Both the position numbers and the translations under genes were made by a program. A DNA stretch of 64,000 nucleotides from Plicaturopsis crispa FD-325 SS-3. Taxonomy: Eukaryota; Basidiomycota; Agaricomycetes; Amylocorticiales; Amylocorticiaceae. Below the pieces are notes generated by a model. That model searched no databases. It was not told the DNA's origin and saw only the letters and a program-made list of their open reading frames with translations. Where the stretch lies: contig KN832558.1 of NCBI GenBank assembly GCA_000827205.1, positions 1,783,839 to 1,847,838 of the forward strand. The letters run 5' to 3'. Positions 1,789 to 47,103 of this stretch are shown here, piece after piece. Each line of letters begins with the position of its first letter. Within the stretch, counting starts at the first letter, position 1.

Positions 1789-3439
1789 GGACGAACAAAG
1801 CCATCCTCACGCCGCGATGAGGCAGGTGCGTTACGACGTATCGGTATGGATGTCTAGAACTACTAAGCTGTATGAGATCTTGGTACGAGGGGTAGCTTCT
1901 AGCAATGTTTGCTTTGCTGGAGTCAGTGCTAGTCGAGAAGTGGAAAGGGTGCCGTGTCGTGAGTTCACCATTCGATCCGTCCCATGAAATGTAAATGATA
2001 TTGCCTTTTCTTACCTACATATACGGCGCACGGCGGCTTTGCAATGCAAGCGTACGGTCCTCGATGAGTCCTCATCCTCTATTCACCTACGTAGAGAACA
2101 CGTTGATCCATCAGTTTCAATTATTTGCCTTTTGACGGGCCAGGTGTCATTCAGCCAACGCTTCGAGACTCACAGTCGAACCTCTTCGATGCCATCGCAT
2201 CTGAATCCACTCATTCGACTTCCTTCATGTCTTCATTGCCGTCGAAAGGTGCACTTGGTGAGAGTCTATAGACACTTTTTCAGGGCGTCACTCGGTCTAC
2301 TTTGCTTGAGTTCTAACGGTTGGACCAGTACCTCGCAGGTGATTGTAACTATCGATTTTCAATTCATCACCATCCAGCCTCCCCTCAACGTTGCGGTCTC
2401 TACGACATACTTAGGGTGCATGCGCCTGGCACTTTAAGTACCTGCCTGCAAGGTCTGTGAGTTGTCACGAGTCTTGTTGTTTTGTGATTTCACCGGCCGG
2501 TCTTGGGCTACCTTGCGCCGGTCGTCGCAATTTTCCCATCCTATTCATTAGGAACGCGATCTGACCACCGTGCGCGCCCATCGCAAGTGGTCGCCTCCCC
2601 CTGACCCCAGGCGCAGCATTGTGGCAACGACACTTCGGGAGAGTTTCGGTGCCGATGCCACCTGACCGAGCAATACATAGATACGTTACATCGATCCTGC
2701 CTCTTAGTCAATGTCTCTGCCTCCTTCCTGGCTCCTACTAACCATCACAGTGAGGATCGTGACACGAAAAGACATGCAAACCGTGGCAAAATACGACTAT
2801 CTACGACTGGTAACGACAATGTCGATTCACGTATACTGATGATCCAGTTGGCATTCGTATATAGGTAGAACCGGACCGCTGGACTAAGACTCAAGTTCCT
2901 GGACCTCGACAACGACGACCAAGCGTGGGCACCCGACTCTTCCTGAGTCCTGACACAAACACATGTTTCGTTGTCGCCACGACGCGATGTCGAGGATGCG
3001 CTATCCAAACAGTCACATGTTGCGGGGCCCCACGTTCGGACTTCTTGTTCCTTGTTGCAACTACCAGATTTGTATTTGTGCTTCTGCTGCTTTCTCTTCG
3101 CCTCAGCCGACCACGGACCGTCCTGCACTCGCGTCTCACGATTCCCAAGCTTTTATGGATAGCCCGTCTCGGTGTCTCAAGGCTTACATTCGACTTACAT
3201 TTGATTAAATGTGCTTTGCCGCCGAGTGTCCCAGCTGAACAGTATTCGAATTTCTGCCTCGATTGCTACCTCCGCATTCTGAAGTCTTGTCGTCGAGCGG
3301 TGGTACTGGGGCTCGCGTGACTATACACCGGTGATCCAGCAGGGCCTTGCTCTGCTTCCTAGTCTGTTCCTCAATCAATGCCTCCGTCACGTTTACGCGT
3401 CCATTGCGCGTATGTATTGCCGGCCGAGAAGGCAGAATG
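1789..3439. other. Intergenic, no recognised gene
   Basis: This 1.65-kb stretch lies between the RBM25-like stop and the esterase promoter. Short open stretches on the + strand at about 2135-2270 and 2320-2460 read like exons, but I could not join them into a gene, and both are closed by stops. They may be relics or chance. Nothing else was recognised. Confidence 0.5.
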
Positions 3440-3446
3440 TATAAGA
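3440..3446 (+). promoter_or_regulatory. Probable TATA box of the carboxylesterase gene
   Basis: The sequence TATAAGA lies about 70 bases before the chosen ATG at 3514, the usual spacing for a fungal TATA element. There is no other evidence. Confidence 0.45.
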
Positions 3447-3513
3447 CGGAACCGAGTCAACTTTTCGTCGATACGTACGGTCCCTGTAATCCCTGCGGTT
3501 GCTACTCCCAGCC

Positions 3514-5794
3514 ATGTTCAAGGTCGTGCGGGATGCTCTGCTACTTAGTGCATTGTTGCAGTCTGGTATAGTTGCTGCAACGCCTCTTGCCAGAGCCTCC
3601 GCCCCGACTATTACACTGGACGACGGGACTTTCACAGGGACCACCGACGGAAATACCGACAAGTTTCTCGGAATACCCTTCGCAGAGGCGCCGTGAGCCC
3701 ATCTCTGCTACAAACATGTTGGGATTTGAAGCTAACACTTCAGCAGGGTTGGTGATCTTCGGTTCAACCTACCAAAGGCCGTCGGACCATACAGCGGAAA
3801 TCTTTCTGCAACTACGTACGGTCTCTCCTGCCCACAGCAAAGCATTAAGCTGCCTCTTCCCGACGGCTTAGCTGCCAATGCCACGGATTTCATCGTAAAC
3901 TCAATATTCCAGGATATCTTCCCGTATGGCGAGGACTGCTTACAACTCAATGTTGTCAAGCCTGCTAACGCGACGGCGGACTCCAAGCTACCAGTTGTAG
4001 TTGTGCGTTTCGCTCCACAATAACATCACACTCTCATTTCTAACACCCAGTCTTTTGAAGTGGATCTTCGGGGGCGGGTTTGAATTGGGGTCGCCTACAA
4101 TGTACGTTCGTGCATCACCCAAGAAGAACTCAGCCGTTGAACTCTTGCCGCAATAGGTACGACGGCGGGGTCATTGTAAAACGATCTATTGCCCTCAATG
4201 AGCCGGTAATATACGTTAGTATGAATTACCGGTATGTAAAATCTGCCTCTATGAATATGCATTGAACTCATAAAACTATGATCTAGCGTAACGGGTCCGT
4301 CACTATTTCTCCGCATTCCCATAAATGCTCTGACCGAATGAGTTCGGTTATCTAGCGTTTGGGTTCTTGGCTAGTCAAGAGGTCAAAGACGCCGGTGTCG
4401 GGAATCTGGGGCTCCAAGATCGTGAGCACACTCCGCCCACTTTTTTGACTGAGCTTCCTGCTGACCTGGCACAGAACGTCTTGCTTTGCGATGGGTCCAG
4501 AAATACATCGGTGCTTTTGGAGGTGACCCTGCCAAAGTCACAATGTTCGTTTGCTTATCCTCGACTATGTCTATGAAGGAATCTGCTAACACGTATATAG
4601 CTGGGGCGAAAGCGCGGGAGCCATCTCTGTTGCTCTACAAATGCTTACCAACGGCGGAGACACCGAAGGTCTTTTCCGCGCAGGTTTCATGGAGTCGGGA
4701 GCTCCCATCCCTGTCGGTGATATAACTCACGGTCAAAAATACTACGATGCCATCGTGGATCAAACCGGCTGCTCCGGGGCATCAGATACTCTCAACTGTC
4801 TGCGCGACGTGCCATACCAGGATTTGTTGGACGCAATCAACAATTCTCCAGGCATTTTCTCGTACCAGGTACGCAGTATCTCAATAGTATCTTCTGCGAG
4901 ACGAATCCAATTTTCTTTGAGCAGTCCCTGATCTTGGCATGGCTCCCCCGGGCGGATGGCATCTTTCTCAAAGAAGATCCCCAAGTTCTCGTTGCCAGCG
5001 GAAGTGTCGCAAATATACCCATTGTCAGCGGTACGCACTCAAGGTCGTGAGCATGAAGCGAATATTTCTGATTAGTACAATAATTCAGGAAATTGTGACG
5101 ATGAGGGAACTCTGTTTTCTCTGTCGAGTCTCAATGTCACGTACGTCCACAATGCCCTCGTATCCTTTGCTCTTGTATAAGCGATCTATCCAGGACCTCC
5201 GATGAGCTGAAGACATACCTTCACACCGAAATTCTTACCGCCGTTAACGAGAGCACGATTGACCGCGGGCTTGAACTGTATCCCGACGACATCACACAAG
5301 GATCCCCTTTCGATACTGGGGTCTTCAACGCTATCACACCAGAGTTCAAGCGCATTGCTGCGTTCTTCGGCGACGCCGTTTTCCAGGGCCCGCGGCGATA
5401 CTTCCTCCAGAAGATATCGGGGAAGCAGAAGATATGGTCTTACGGTACTGCCTGCCTTTCTTCCCATTTCAGACCCGGTCATCGCTTACTAGCCGTCTCC
5501 TCGTCAGTAAATAAACGCGTCAAGGACCTTCCCGTACTCGGGTCTGCACATGCCACCGATATACTCAACGTTTACGCCGACGGTGATATGACGGACTATC
5601 TGATCAATTTTGTCAACAACCTCGACCCCAACGGCGCCGGCGGTCATCTGGAGTGGCCCGAGTACACGACAGCATCTCCTCAATTAATGACGTTCCAGGA
5701 TGGGCTAAATCCTGCGCTCTCGATTAGCTCGGACGACTACAGAGTGGAAGCGATGGCGTTCTTGACCCAGGTGACGCTGGACACACCCATATAA
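3514..5794 (+). CDS. Secreted type-B carboxylesterase/lipase
   Basis: Hydrolase of the fungal type-B carboxylesterase/lipase family (alpha/beta fold), which cleaves ester bonds of lipids or small esters outside the cell. The first ~22 residues from ATG 3514 form a signal peptide (hydrophobic LLLSALLQSGIVAATP). Then come FLGIPFAEAP and the oxyanion-hole motif WIFGGGFELGS. The nucleophile motif GESAG has its Ser codon at 4611-4613. The likely catalytic His is in GSAHATDI (codon 5549-5551). All exon joins keep frame and the stop is TAA at 5792-5794. One exon is only 8 nt (4287-4294): it sits between introns 4232-4286 and 4295-4355 and is needed to read NYRVTAFGFL, a conserved block. The gene looks intact. 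The exact substrate cannot be told from sequence. Confidence 0.9.
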
Positions 5795-7184
5795 TGGCGG
5801 GAGTAGTTACGCGGACAAATTTCGGGGCACTCTCTTTTCCCTTGCCTGTCTTTCAGTTTAAATTTTGTACCATCAGTGTCATTCCATTACAGCCTTCTAA
5901 GTATATATCATGTATGGCTCCTTTACTGATACGTTGAGTGTCTGTGATCAAATAACGAGGGCAGAGGCGTAGTCTGTAAAACATGGATCGTATACGCCAC
6001 ACGTACCCTCGCGCCCATGGTTGGCCCGTTCGCGTGAATTTTCCAGCCTCCAGTGCGACCGTAAACCTTCCTCAGCGGTATAATAGGTAGGTAGGGCGGA
6101 AACGTATTGAGGCCAAAGGAGTCCTTGTTTGACCGATCGCGAAAAGCACACTTGATCGGGTCCATGAAGTTTCCGAGTCCATGACCAGCATGTCCATGGC
6201 TCGCATTCTGCGGTGACATTCTGGGTCGCGCCCATTTCAACCTGTCAATGGACACGCTGAATCGGTCTAAGTGACGCTAAGCAAAACAGGGTCGATCAGA
6301 AATGGTGATACCTCGCCACGGCACCCATTGACACTGGCAGGGTACAAGTTGCACAGCAGTGATTCAGCTTGTCATGGGAGGAGATATATTCCGGCACGGT
6401 GTGGGCGGCCTTGGCCGGCTGCAGACGACAACTGGTCAAATTTGACGCGTGCTGATTTTCACTGGGGGTCAAAGATCTTGCCCACAACTTGCATACGACT
6501 CGCCTACAACAGTTTTGCACCTCGGTTCACGGACTACATACTTGGCTTGACTCTTGCGCCGTCCACAGCACAGGCTTTTGAGGGCTCTGTCTACCTTGAA
6601 AGTGTCTCACAGACTCGAGCGCGTGTTCCGATTTTGCTGGCATCATGCTGGCATCGTAGCTAGCACTCCCGCCACCATCCTGACCTCTTCGAGACGCTGC
6701 GATCATGAATTGAACCCACGCCGCTAGGTTGAACGGCTGGACAGCTGGAGAACTTGCCGTTTTGCCAATGAAATGGAGACGAAGTGCCAAATCTGAAGGA
6801 AACCGAAGAAAAGGGTACCGCCCCGGTCGCAGGCCCTTGTCCTTTCAACGCCACCATGCCGTCAAATCTTTGCTACACCTGTGCATTCTAGTCTCGCTGT
6901 CCCTGGCTACCCTCCTGCCGCTGTCAGTGGCAGTCATACTGACTCTCGTCTCTTTCTTTTCGCCGACAGCGTATTTCCTCCGCTGTCTACCAAGTACGCG
7001 ATCCTCAGGTTCAACGTCGCACATCAGGTAGCTGTCTGTCCAACTTTTGTTTGCGAAGTGTCGGTCTTCACTAAATTCAGGTCTATCCACGATAGTTTTG
7101 GAAATGCTTCATCCCCAGGGACAGGCTACCGCCTTGCTCGTGGCCCCCTGGTAGGCCCTGCGCTACCCTCTGATACATGACGGC
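5795..7184. other. Intergenic, no recognised gene
   Basis: 1.4 kb between the esterase stop and the oxidase promoter. Two overlapping minus-strand open frames of 95-110 codons at 5923-6255 resemble no family I know and lack a convincing gene context. I see nothing else here. Confidence 0.5.
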
Positions 7185-7190
7185 TATAAA
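7185..7190 (+). promoter_or_regulatory. Probable TATA box of the L-amino-acid oxidase gene
   Basis: TATAAA 71-76 bases before the ATG at 7261, within a short 5' leader. Confidence 0.5.
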
Positions 7191-7260
7191 GCCAAGGGAC
7201 ATCCTCTTCGACCCTTAAGATTTTTGACCCACTCAAATCTACCATCTCCCTGCGTTCACT

Positions 7261-9882
7261 ATGTCTAGCATCCCCGCTCAAGACGAAGACCCTCTCGCTC
7301 TCTACGCCCGTCGCATCATACAGAGTGGTCCTCTGGAGCCTGTCAATGCGATTCCTCAGCCCACTCTCCCAGAGCCGTCCGCCAACACTTCGGTCTCCGA
7401 CCAAGTCGAGACCGACCCTCCCGTAGGAATCATTGGAGCGGGTAAGAAAATATCATTCGACTAGAGTTCTGTCGTACTGACGGGTCTCTTGTGGTCCCGT
7501 TTCCTAGGTTGTGCCGGGCTGTACGCCGGTCTCATCTTCGATTCTCTCGGAATCAAGTACGAGATCCTCGAGGCCTCCAATAGGGTTGGCGGTCGCGTTC
7601 AAACCTACCATTTCCCTCAAAAACCGGGTCACCCCAAAGGAACCCACGATTACTATGTACGATATACTATCTTCGTTCTTCCTCATCTCTGCTGACTTAC
7701 TTTCACAATATCTAGGATCTCGGACCTATGAGGTATGCACATCTACTCGTCTTCTGACACGTGAATATCATTTTCACGCTATTGATACATCAGGTTCCCG
7801 GAAACTCGCATTATGAAGGTATCGTGAAACTTACGTCGCAGCAGAAGTCTCCTTTCTCATGCGCATTATCCATCCAGAGATTGTTCAAGCTTTTCAAGTA
7901 CAAGAAACTCAACGAAAACGGCCTTTCAGTCGAGAAGAAGCTTATTCGTTACTGGTTTGACACCAGGGACAACAACGGCATCCAATATTACAACGGCATC
8001 CGCAAGCGCCTCAACGTCCCCGCGGACACCGTCGACCCTTTCGATGTCGAGCCGCTTGGCGTGGGCGAGGTCTACGTGAAAATTGGCTACAAAGCGTTAT
8101 TTGAAGATGTCATCGACAGGTTCGCCCAGGGACTCAAGAACGACGTATCAACTGGCAGCGATGCCGGTTGGAAGCTGATGCTCCAGTATGATTCGTACTC
8201 GACGCGATCCTACATGTGCCATGCGTACGTGCCTAGCCCCAAGCTCGTTGCCGCGGGCCTTCCTGAGGGAAAGCATCTTCCCACTGATGTCGTCAACTGG
8301 ATGGAGACCTTCACTATGACTTCGGGCTGGTAAGCTCATGCCTACTCTCCCGTGGAGTTCAGCTTATTCTTCACAGGTATGACCGTGCGCTGACCACCAC
8401 CGTGCTCGAGGAACTCTCCTTCGGTTACCCACAGGATCCTAAGAACCCAGTCAAGTTCTGGTGCCTAGAGTGAGCACGTTGGCATATCACTCACTCTTTG
8501 AGCATTGCTAACGAGCGCTAACAGGGGAGGCTCAGAGGGGCTCACCAATTCTATGGCCGAATATCTTGAGCGAGAGCATCCAGGCTCCATTTTGAGACAG
8601 CACCGTGTCACCGCCGTTTCTATCAAAAATCCGGAGATAGCAGGAAAATCACCGCTGCAAGTCGCACACACCACGGTGACCGGCGAGGAGAAAGTGAAGT
8701 CGTACTCCCATGTCATCGCGACCTGCCCCACCACAGTTCTTCGCCACGCTATCGATCTGACTCGCGCTGGCCTTAGCACGGCTCAGACCAACGCTCTTCG
8801 GTACGTGTCTATCCACAGAGCAATAGGAACTTACTGATATTCGTGTACTTTCCTCCAGTGCCTGCAATTACACCCCGGCCACCAAGGTCGGGATGAAGTT
8901 TAAGTCTGCCTGGTGGACAGCCGGCAAAGATGCCCATGGCAATCCTATCGTCGACCGCGAGGGCAACAAGATCAACATAGTCGGGGGCCGTTCTTTCACG
9001 GACAGGCCCATTCGTGTGGTCGTGTATCCGTCCTACGGACTCGACCAAGACGGCCCCGCCGTTCTCATCTGCAGCTTCGTCTGGACGGAGGACGCGGCGC
9101 GCATTGGCGCGCTCATCGGCTCGCCGGACCCTGCCGTCGAGAAGCAGCTCAAGGAGATGGTCTTGCGGGACCTGTCCGACCTTCACAACATCGAGCTAGA
9201 GGTCCTCCAGGACCAGTACCTCGACATCTTCAGTGTTGACTGGGCTGACAACCCTGACACGATGGGTGTGTCTAGGGCGTCTCCGCGGACCTTCTTGCAT
9301 TACTAACTATTGAATGACCCGACAGGTTCCTTTGCCCTGTTCGGCCCAGGAAAATTCGACCAGATGTACCGGAGCCTGACTCTCCCCGCCGGAAATGGCC
9401 GTCTCCACTTTGCTGGAGGTGCGTTATCTTCCGTGTCTCCCCCACCTCCGGTCTTCCTTTCCATCCTCCTCATTTCATCGCGCATATATCTCGTATCTGA
9501 CTAATATACTATCTCTCCACAGAGGCCGTCAGTATCAGACACGGGTGAGTCGTTTCTGGACTGCCATCTAATATGATCTAAACATTGTTGCGACAGCTGG
9601 ATCGTCGGTGCCCTTGACAGTACTTGGCGGGCGATCAACGAGTACTTGCTCGTTGCGCACCCGGAGAAGATCCAGCTTTTCGTCGATACCTGGGGTCGCA
9701 ACATGGAGTGGCTCAAGAAGCCCAAGAAGGGGGCGGTCGACATCAAGAACAGTCTCCTCCTCGCCCATATAAACACTTTCACGCCCGAGGCGTTCGAGGT
9801 CAATGACGTGGTAGCTGCCAATGATGAAGGCGAAGGCGACTCCGAGGGCGAAGACGAAGCCATGACTGTGGATGTCAAGTAG
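7261..9882 (+). CDS. Flavin-dependent L-amino-acid oxidase (monoamine oxidase fold)
   Basis: Predicted FAD enzyme oxidising L-amino acids to keto acids with release of ammonia and hydrogen peroxide, as in mycorrhizal and saprotrophic agarics where such enzymes mobilise nitrogen. From ATG 7261 there is a ~55-residue leader. The dinucleotide-binding motif follows: VGIIGAG then CAGLYAGLIFDSLG across an intron, then EASNRVGGRVQTY. A central segment carries RKRLNVPADTVDPF. The C-terminal FAD motif is GRLHFAGEAVSIRHGWIVGA (split by introns near 9420-9600), typical of amine oxidases. The C-terminus is acidic (EGEGDSEGEDE). No signal peptide is evident, so an intracellular enzyme is likely. All introns keep frame; stop TAG at 9880-9882. 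Substrate range is inferred from family resemblance only. Confidence 0.88.
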
Positions 9883-45809: not shown

Positions 45810-47012
45810 CTAGAGCGGGATAGGGAGTCCTGGAATAGTAGGGATGGGGAGGCCCGGAACAGTAGGGAGTCCCGGGACAGAAGGGAGGGGGTTTCCTGGA
45901 ACAGTGGGGATCGGGAGTCCTGGCACAGTCGGTACCGGAAGGCCGGGAAGCCCTGGGAGCTGACGCTTGAGGCCGCCGCCGAGAACGTTAAGCTAGTGCA
46001 GAAGTGAATTTAGCGCATATAGCCCCACACTGCGGCTGTGTCAGCTTACAGAGTCACCGCTCAATACTGAGGGGACAGTATCAGTGTAGGATTCCATGAC
46101 AGCCATGCCAGAACTGTACTCACGATCACCAACATCGACCGGGACAGAAGCTAGCTGCCGCTTGGGTTTGCCGCAAACGTTAGCCTAGTGCAGTAGTGAG
46201 TTCAGCAAATATTGTCGCGCACTTCGGCTGTGTCAGCTTACGGAGACATCGTCAAATACTGAAGGGGCGGTATCAATGTAGGGTTCCATGACAGCCATGT
46301 TAGAACTGCACTCACGTTCAAAAAGAGAGCCCGGGCCGTCGGCACCGAGCTGACGCTTGAGGTCGGGAAGCTCTCTTCCAACGACAAGCTAGTGCAGTTC
46401 AGAACTCAGCGCGTATCGTGACACATCGCGGTTGTCAACTTACGGAACCACCGCTCAATACTGAGAGGGCAATATCAATGTGGGATTCCATGATAGGTCA
46501 AAACTGTACTCACCGTCACCAACAGTGACCGGGACATCAGCGAGCTGACGCTTGAGGCTGCCGAGAACGTTGGCCTAGTGCAGTAGTGAAATCAGCGCAT
46601 ATAGCCCCACACTGCGGCTGTGTCAGCTTACGGAGTTACCGCTCAATGCTGAGAGGGCAACATCAACACGGGGTTCAATGACAGCCATGTCAGAACTGTA
46701 CTCACCGTCACCAACATCGACCGGGATAGAGGCGAGCTGACGCTTAAGGCCGCCGAGAACGTTGGCCTAGTGCAGTAGTGAAATTAGCGCATATAGCCCC
46801 ACACTGCGGCTGTGTCAGCTTACGGAGTTACCGCTCAATGCTGAGGGGACAGCGTCAACGCGGGGTTCAACAACAGCCATGTCAGACCTGTACTCACCAT
46901 CACCAGCAGAGACAGGAACAGAGGCGAGCTGACGTTTGTCAATGGGCGACGCGTCGGTAATCTGGAATACAGCGACGGCGAGAAGAGCGACGAAGAGGCT
47001 GCGTGAAAACAT
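45810..47012 (-). CDS. Secreted tandem-repeat peptide precursor with six Lys-Arg sites (Kex2-processed repeat protein type)
   Basis: Eleven exons give 212 residues. Signal peptide MFSRSLFVALLAVAVFQITD is followed by ASPID and KR (residues 26-27). Five related units follow, each starting QL after KR: QLASVPVSAGDALSGNSANV, QLASIPVDVGDALSGNSANV, QLADVPVTVGDVLSGGS, the divergent QLGADGPGSLFELFDDVS and QLASVPVDVGDLLSGDS. KR recurs at 52-53, 78-79, 107-108, 134-135 and 161-162. The last KR opens a 50-residue Pro/Leu/Gly tail (LPGLPGLPVPTVPGLPIPTV onward). Exons: 46898-47012, 46824-46840, 46706-46766, 46632-46648, 46514-46574, 46444-46460, 46316-46388, 46242-46258, 46124-46184, 46050-46066, 45810-45992. 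They total 639 nt, in frame. This layout is that of Kex2-processed repeat proteins and fungal RiPP or pheromone precursors. No peptide-modifying enzyme was recognised nearby. Release and role of the peptides are inference; I know no homologue. Confidence 0.82.
45993..46897 (-). repeat. Tandem exon-intron modules (~192-bp period) of the repeat-precursor gene
   Basis: Each module consists of an intron (mostly exactly 57 nt, GTGAGTACAG...CAG), a 17-nt exon, a second intron (mostly 57 nt, GTAAGCTGACACAGCC...CTAG) and a 61-nt exon. The first two full modules are 192 bp apart. Intron sequence is as well conserved as exon sequence between modules, which points to recent tandem duplication or gene conversion. 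The third and fourth modules are more diverged (introns of 53-55 nt, one 73-nt exon). Confidence 0.85.
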
Positions 47013-47096: not shown

Positions 47097-47103
47097 TTTT
47101 ATA
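47097..47103 (-). promoter_or_regulatory. Probable TATA box of the repeat-precursor gene
   Basis: TATAAAA on the minus strand, 85-91 bases upstream of the ATG at 47012. The strong match suggests a regulated, highly expressed gene. Confidence 0.55.

Follow-up and report, generated by a model that had tools for sequence, protein, structure and literature searches.

The locus at 45810..47012 of the window, the 64,000-nucleotide stretch of genomic DNA analysed here, is a confirmed coding gene of Plicatura (Plicaturopsis) crispa, PLICRDRAFT_697449, and its product is very probably a Kex2-processed repeat protein (KEP), the precursor of six linear secreted peptides. Genes of this kind are already known from many fungi, and the repeat is that of a small peptide family. 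What is new is that, judged by sequence likeness, about seven P. crispa precursor loci and one protein of Athelia psychrophila form one family with this repeat. The analysis supplies exact masses by which the six peptides can be sought, together with a set of relatives for comparison, and the gene is a clean example of precursor growth through duplication of an intron-bearing unit.

The gene runs along the minus strand from an ATG at 47012 to a TAG ending at 45810, and its 11 exons join into 639 nt in frame, encoding 212 amino acids in codons that include no internal stop (Table 1). The ten introns measure 53–57 nt each, with GTGAGT or GTAAG[CT] at their donors and CAG or TAG at their acceptors. 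The first-pass annotation had proposed exactly this structure, and it proved correct to the base: a database search that scored 7993 candidates returned the public record ‘hypothetical protein PLICRDRAFT_697449 [Plicaturopsis crispa FD-325 SS-3]’, identical to the spliced product at 212 of 212 residues (NCBI taxonomy places strain FD-325 SS-3 under Plicatura crispa, Amylocorticiales). A 192-bp tandem array underlies the gene, so that its repetition is not accidental; the array also accounts for the recurrence of the introns. Independent support for the splicing comes from a paralog on contig 12, which carries the repeat with no introns inside it.

Table 1. Features of the PLICRDRAFT_697449 locus, in window coordinates
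Feature	Position	Strand	Length (nt)	Content or basis
Exon 1	46898..47012	-	115	ATG, signal-peptide-like MFSRSLFVALLAVAVFQITDA, SPID, first KRQL, first half of core 1
Exon 2	46824..46840	-	17	Middle of core 1
Exon 3	46706..46766	-	61	End of core 1, KRQL, first half of core 2
Exon 4	46632..46648	-	17	Middle of core 2
Exon 5	46514..46574	-	61	End of core 2, KRQL, first half of core 3
Exon 6	46444..46460	-	17	Middle of core 3
Exon 7	46316..46388	-	73	End of core 3, KRQL, first half of divergent core 4
Exon 8	46242..46258	-	17	Middle of core 4
Exon 9	46124..46184	-	61	End of core 4, KRQL with silent changes, first half of core 5
Exon 10	46050..46066	-	17	Middle of core 5
Exon 11	45810..45992	-	183	End of core 5, KRQL, 50-residue Pro/Leu/Gly-rich tail, TAG
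Tandem array of 192-bp units, 5.1 copies	45957..46938	-		Two introns per unit; repeat analysis
First of five ‘B’ introns	46767..46823	-	57	B introns 57, 57, 55, 57 and 57 nt; alike across units 1, 2 and 5
TATAAAA, possible TATA box	47097..47103	-		About 85 nt upstream of ATG; by eye

The precursor opens with MFSRSLFVALLAVAVFQITDASPID, in which residues 6–18 are hydrophobic (mean Kyte-Doolittle value 2.77); by eye, this start reads as a signal peptide. All six KR sites of the protein are KRQL, and no other dibasic pair (KR, RR, KK or RK) occurs in its 212 residues. The sites separate five repeat units, four of them close and one divergent, with cores of 24, 24, 27, 25 and 25 residues, from each other and from a C-terminal tail of 50 residues, which has PGLP/VPT repeats and no KR inside. 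Each of the elements that the first-pass annotation had read from the letters, namely the signal-peptide-like start, the six Lys-Arg-Gln-Leu sites and the lengths of cores and tail, is present in the sequence. Neither Tyr nor Trp is found in the protein, and its only cysteine sits in unit 4. Used as a genome query, the Pro-rich tail matched only itself at E<=0.01, with no counterpart found in the paralogs. The computed neutral masses of the six peptides in their predicted pyroglutamyl form are 2179.112, 2279.164, 2377.238, 2518.169, 2687.438 and 4845.843 Da; with uncyclised Gln each would be heavier by 17.027.

How would such a precursor be processed? The protein would enter the secretory pathway, Kex2 would cut after each KR in the Golgi, and a Kex1-type carboxypeptidase would trim the basic residues, upon which the Gln at the new N-termini would cyclise to pyroglutamate. 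The products released would be five acidic peptides of 24–27 residues and one Pro-rich peptide of 50 residues, all linear. A genome profile search places a Kex2-type protease domain (P_proprotein) on contig 7, with 64.6 bits against a cut-off of 21. The Kex2-processed repeat architecture suggested at the outset is borne out by at least three similar repeats between KR sites and by the presence of this protease domain in the genome.

KEPs, a name introduced in PMC6339444, are a described and widespread fungal class according to excerpts of PMC7329392, PMC6339444 and PMC9769878. At least three similar repeats define them (PMC6339444), and a survey counted 7878 KEPs in 1345 of 1461 strains (PMC7329392). 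In Coprinopsis cinerea many of the confirmed KEP peptides are linear and pyroglutamylated, and KEP peptide functions are described in the excerpted text as largely unknown (PMC9769878). Six kep genes of that species were knocked out with no visible phenotype, and synthetic KEP peptides displayed no antibacterial activity (excerpts of PMC9769878), so that it is only by analogy that the P. crispa peptides may be supposed to act extracellularly, whether on other organisms or at the surface of the hyphae. The C. cinerea KEP 497993 has a signal peptide, Kex2-separated repeats, an N-terminal Gln that becomes pyroglutamate and a peptide of about 20 residues (excerpts of PMC9769878), a layout to which PLICRDRAFT_697449, with its signal-peptide-like start and predicted pyroglutamyl products, is similar, but the C. 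cinerea core QIPAELPTKSINGNIEPYKV differs from the PLICRDRAFT_697449 cores when compared by eye, and the two also differ in the ten introns that PLICRDRAFT_697449 has inside its repeat array. The PLICRDRAFT_697449 repeat was not met in the excerpted texts of PMC6339444, PMC7329392 and PMC9769878, a literature searched by words and not by sequence, and among the matches listed for the species together with Kex2 the name of P. crispa had 0 occurrences. Table 2 of PMC7329392, as excerpted, lists Plicaturopsis under KEP type G-1, a type described as Tyr-rich; since PLICRDRAFT_697449 is devoid of Tyr, the G-1 entry is probably a different gene.

The comparison of repeat units points to constraint on the coding frame. 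Indels between the coding units are all multiples of three (+9 and +3 nt in exon 7 relative to exons 3, 5 and 9, and +3 nt in exon 11), and those between the introns of the units are of -4 and -2 nt. KR and QL are retained at 6 of 6 sites, two of which have silent codon changes. The first-pass annotation had held that the open frame was unlikely to be a product of chance, and this is upheld by the exact public model, the intron-free coding paralog and the confinement of indels of three to exons. Among units 1, 2 and 5 the nonsynonymous/synonymous ratio is 0.46 in the coding frame versus 0.63 and 0.91 in the other two, which is weak coding evidence with no significance test behind it. Against simple constraint, dN exceeds dS, over few sites, in all four comparisons that involve unit 4, and likewise in the pair 2–3. 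Unit 4 itself (QLGADGPGSLFELFDDVSANVCGKP; 46242-46388 plus the start of 46124-46184) stands out in having dN above dS against every one of the four others.

Between units the introns show no less conservation than the exons, which likewise speaks against simple constraint: the two introns have mean identities of 0.81 and 0.83, compared with 0.75 in the 17-nt exons and 0.71 in exons 3, 5, 7 and 9. Units 1, 2 and 5 differ by 3.5% in intron B, 18.7% in intron A and 15.4% in coding sequence. The likeness of intron B among these units is possibly the outcome of recent conversion; the identity pattern as a whole is consistent both with rapid change of the cores and with recent exchange between units. 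The array expanded via tandem duplication of the 192-bp unit bearing two introns, and units 3 and 4 diverged yet retained KR-QL and the frame. Two other interpretations of intron B were discarded: as a mobile introner, it has copies only inside the PLICRDRAFT_697449 gene by our sequence searches, and as a structured RNA it has 0 Rfam matches at E<=1. The energy of its RNAalifold consensus is -7.5 kcal/mol and the covariation term (+0.48) is unfavourable, although two-sided change is seen in three of the 15 pairs (6-14, 23-39 and 27-35).

The repeat is not restricted to this gene. Used as a query, it directly matched the contig-12 paralog (894651-895188, minus strand), in which one divergent and four QL units (e.g. 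QLVDIPIVVDDSLDGNVLDILDLKR) occupy a single open frame; an intron of about 61 nt is inferred close to where its signal exon ends. This 894.7-kb paralog aligns with the PLICRDRAFT_697449 cores across the intron positions with 83.6 bits (43% over 128 residues). Among the controls, 500 shuffles reached at most 28.5 bits and 500 period-preserving permutations at most 27.3, and the reversed sequence scored 21.2. The paralog used as a query in turn led to related arrays at 830.5 and 891.2 kb of contig 12 and at 267.7–273.9 kb of contig 14, on which two further queries agree, and a reversed query found 0 family members in the genome, its one match lying elsewhere with E 0.025. The repeats at 891 kb on contig 12 match those of PLICRDRAFT_697449 directly, scoring 37.4 bits; the maximum over two control sets of 500 each was 27.7. 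Frames read by eye contain six signal-peptide-like starts besides that of PLICRDRAFT_697449, which brings the number of precursor loci in the genome to about seven. The pattern shared by 19 chosen units of contigs 12 and 14, with the QL units of the paralog left out, is xGINIPxxVxDxLDDNxVxILxRxG; set against four PLICRDRAFT_697449 units (unit 4 left out), it gave a probability of 68% and an E of 4.8e-5 for a single comparison.

Like PLICRDRAFT_697449, the paralogs on contig 12 (830.5, 891.2 and 894.7 kb) and contig 14 (267.7–273.9 kb) have a signal-peptide-like start, and basic sites flank their repeats of the pattern GINIPxxVxDxLDDNxVxIL or its QL variant; unlike it, they have, as read by eye, introns elsewhere or none in the repeats. 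Gln was seen after the cleavage site in two genes only, PLICRDRAFT_697449 and the 894.7-kb paralog. The cores of the other members, read by eye, mostly begin with DG, SG or GG, and SR often takes the place of KR, so neither the Q nor the dibasic site appears to be needed family-wide.

The sole relative found outside P. crispa is FIBSPDRAFT_1045963 of Athelia psychrophila (Atheliales), which matched the family profile with E 4.9e-8 among 7991 scored candidates. It shares with PLICRDRAFT_697449 the type of repeat between KR sites (37.4 bits; none of the controls, two sets of 500, exceeded 28.5), but identity over the repeat region is about 22%, and KR is followed by HG, DG or DD, never by QL. 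More relatives may exist, as the database searches scored 7993 and 7991 candidates. The modelled contig-12 paralog matched nothing at E<=1 among 64 protein database candidates, and its failure to be recovered there suggests that proteome-based KEP surveys may undercount such genes. The earlier remark that the repeat was not recognised from any described family needs to be divided: the repeat is no orphan, considering the P. crispa loci and FIBSPDRAFT_1045963, and it was not met in the excerpted KEP literature. As to the profile search for KRQL repeats recommended at that time, related repeat proteins exist, and the QL start was seen in only two P. crispa genes.

Searches against structures and curated families were also conducted. 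PLICRDRAFT_697449 had 0 matches at E<=10 in a PDB sequence search, and the four PDB matches of the family profile were judged to be chance ones; the best of them was an AI-designed barrel with E 0.00018, which implies that E-values are inflated for repeats of this kind. At E<=1 in NCBIfam, 0 families were found for PLICRDRAFT_697449 and for the contig-12 member L019:1709-2182, five for a contig-14 member and one for FIBSPDRAFT_1045963, all of the latter below cut-off. Structure prediction for PLICRDRAFT_697449 and one relative was uninformative (two sequences; mean pLDDT 33.1, pTM 0.14).

Another possibility for the nature of the peptides is that they are surface-active or amyloid-forming constituents of the wall, like the Rep1 repellents of Ustilago maydis or the chaplins of Streptomyces. 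This role was considered since the family pattern is reminiscent of chaplins and Rep1 is itself a KEP: it is a Kex2-processed repeat precursor of linear peptides, as PLICRDRAFT_697449 is proposed to be, and its peptides form amyloid-like fibrils and control the properties of the hyphal wall (excerpts of PMC9769878 and PMC6339444). A chaplin-like secreted protein has been reported from the fungus Venturia (PMC5412055, excerpted). PLICRDRAFT_697449 does have a match to the chaplin model ChpA-C (PF03777), which is sub-threshold (E 0.019; 15.2 bits versus a cut-off of 21), and a contig-14 member has a sub-threshold match to curli CsgA (E 0.01), but meaningless matches score better than either (CDC48_2, E 0.00011; RhlB, E 0.00012). 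ChpA-C is matched by only one of six family sequences, weakly, and has 0 matches at E<=10 in the P. crispa genome, where genes of short exons could escape. The beta hydrophobic moment, a proxy for surface activity, reveals hydrophobic alternation in 11 chosen contig-12 cores (joint p 0.02, uncorrected, in one of three groups), but not in the five cores of PLICRDRAFT_697449 (joint p 0.94) or in four contig-14 cores (p 0.78). In this proxy PLICRDRAFT_697449 is unlike Rep1, to which it is likened by layout and not by sequence, and a surface role of its peptides seems unlikely. The more sweeping proposition, that the peptides of the whole family are beta-strand-turn-strand surface peptides that self-assemble, and so form a Kex2-released counterpart, convergent in these Agaricomycetes, to chaplins and repellents, from which family PLICRDRAFT_697449 is a diverging pyroglutamate-capped branch with units 3 and 4 under diversifying selection, strikes us as decidedly improbable.

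Ustiloxin-type precursors have the same layout of a signal peptide and Kex2-separated repeats (PMC7329392, excerpted), and the first-pass annotation had mentioned them as a parallel and advised a search of the flanks for DUF3328/UstYa. The genome does contain six UstYa matches, on contigs 1, 4 and 10, and Peroxidase_2 and FAD_binding_3 frames lie about 33–35 kb from the gene within the window. However, 0 of the six UstYa matches fall on contig 5, the contig of the gene (intron-split UstYa genes may escape a six-frame search), which makes a cyclic product of the ustiloxin or dikaritin type very unlikely. Nor did UstYa appear in a Pfam scan of 20 window frames, made up of 19 of the 47 frames with 150 aa or more and one shorter frame: 11 had family matches (SUN, WD40, tetraspanin, AAA, M20 and others) and nine had none. 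The precursor, moreover, offers no Tyr or Trp. A precursor of an alpha-type pheromone-like hormone is scarcely to be expected either: Basidiomycota have KEPs that resemble the alpha pheromones of Ascomycota (PMC6339444, excerpted), but of the marks of such precursors, Ste13 spacers (PMC9769878, excerpted) and the WXW of the yeast alpha-factor domain (PMC7329392, excerpted), XA/XP directly follows KR at 0 of 6 sites, all being KRQL, and Trp is present in 0 cores. The tail of PGLP/VPT repeats looks structural and lacks KR, as could befit a whole repetitive extracellular or wall protein that stays uncut; against this, 6 of 6 KR mark the borders of units and have persisted as the units diverged, silent codon changes included, and we give that reading little chance. 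Finally, the periodicity of the DNA and the conservation of introns on a par with exons would suit a non-coding 192-bp minisatellite or a decayed gene, an explanation rendered barely credible by the public gene model, the intron-free coding paralog on contig 12, the occurrence of indels of three in exons only and the 212 codons free of stops.

Several minor observations were made elsewhere in the genome. On contig 10, two UstYa matches on opposite strands lie within 4.5 kb (439447-443881), a possible dikaritin-type cluster. On contig 14 (265000-274999, about 2400–9500 within that segment), at least three precursors related to PLICRDRAFT_697449 are clustered, with starts like MSTFAKLTVLITLALSVSAAPWGSHPKPACKRDG and cores like DGINVGALVHDVANDN. 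The last of the contig-14 precursors has a non-repeat hydrophobic segment after its repeats; a hydrophobic-surface-binding domain was considered for it and dismissed, with 0 Pfam matches at E<=1. At about 267.7–268.5 kb of the same contig, introns seem by eye to lie inside the repeat array at S|G after KR, unlike those of PLICRDRAFT_697449. The first unit of several relatives (L019:1709-2182 on contig 12, L020, and L018 on contig 14) contains one Cys, as in GINIPITIDCILDGN, and a second Cys precedes the first KR closely in these relatives (CNLKR, CKR, CPSKR), both read by eye; the two might form a disulfide.
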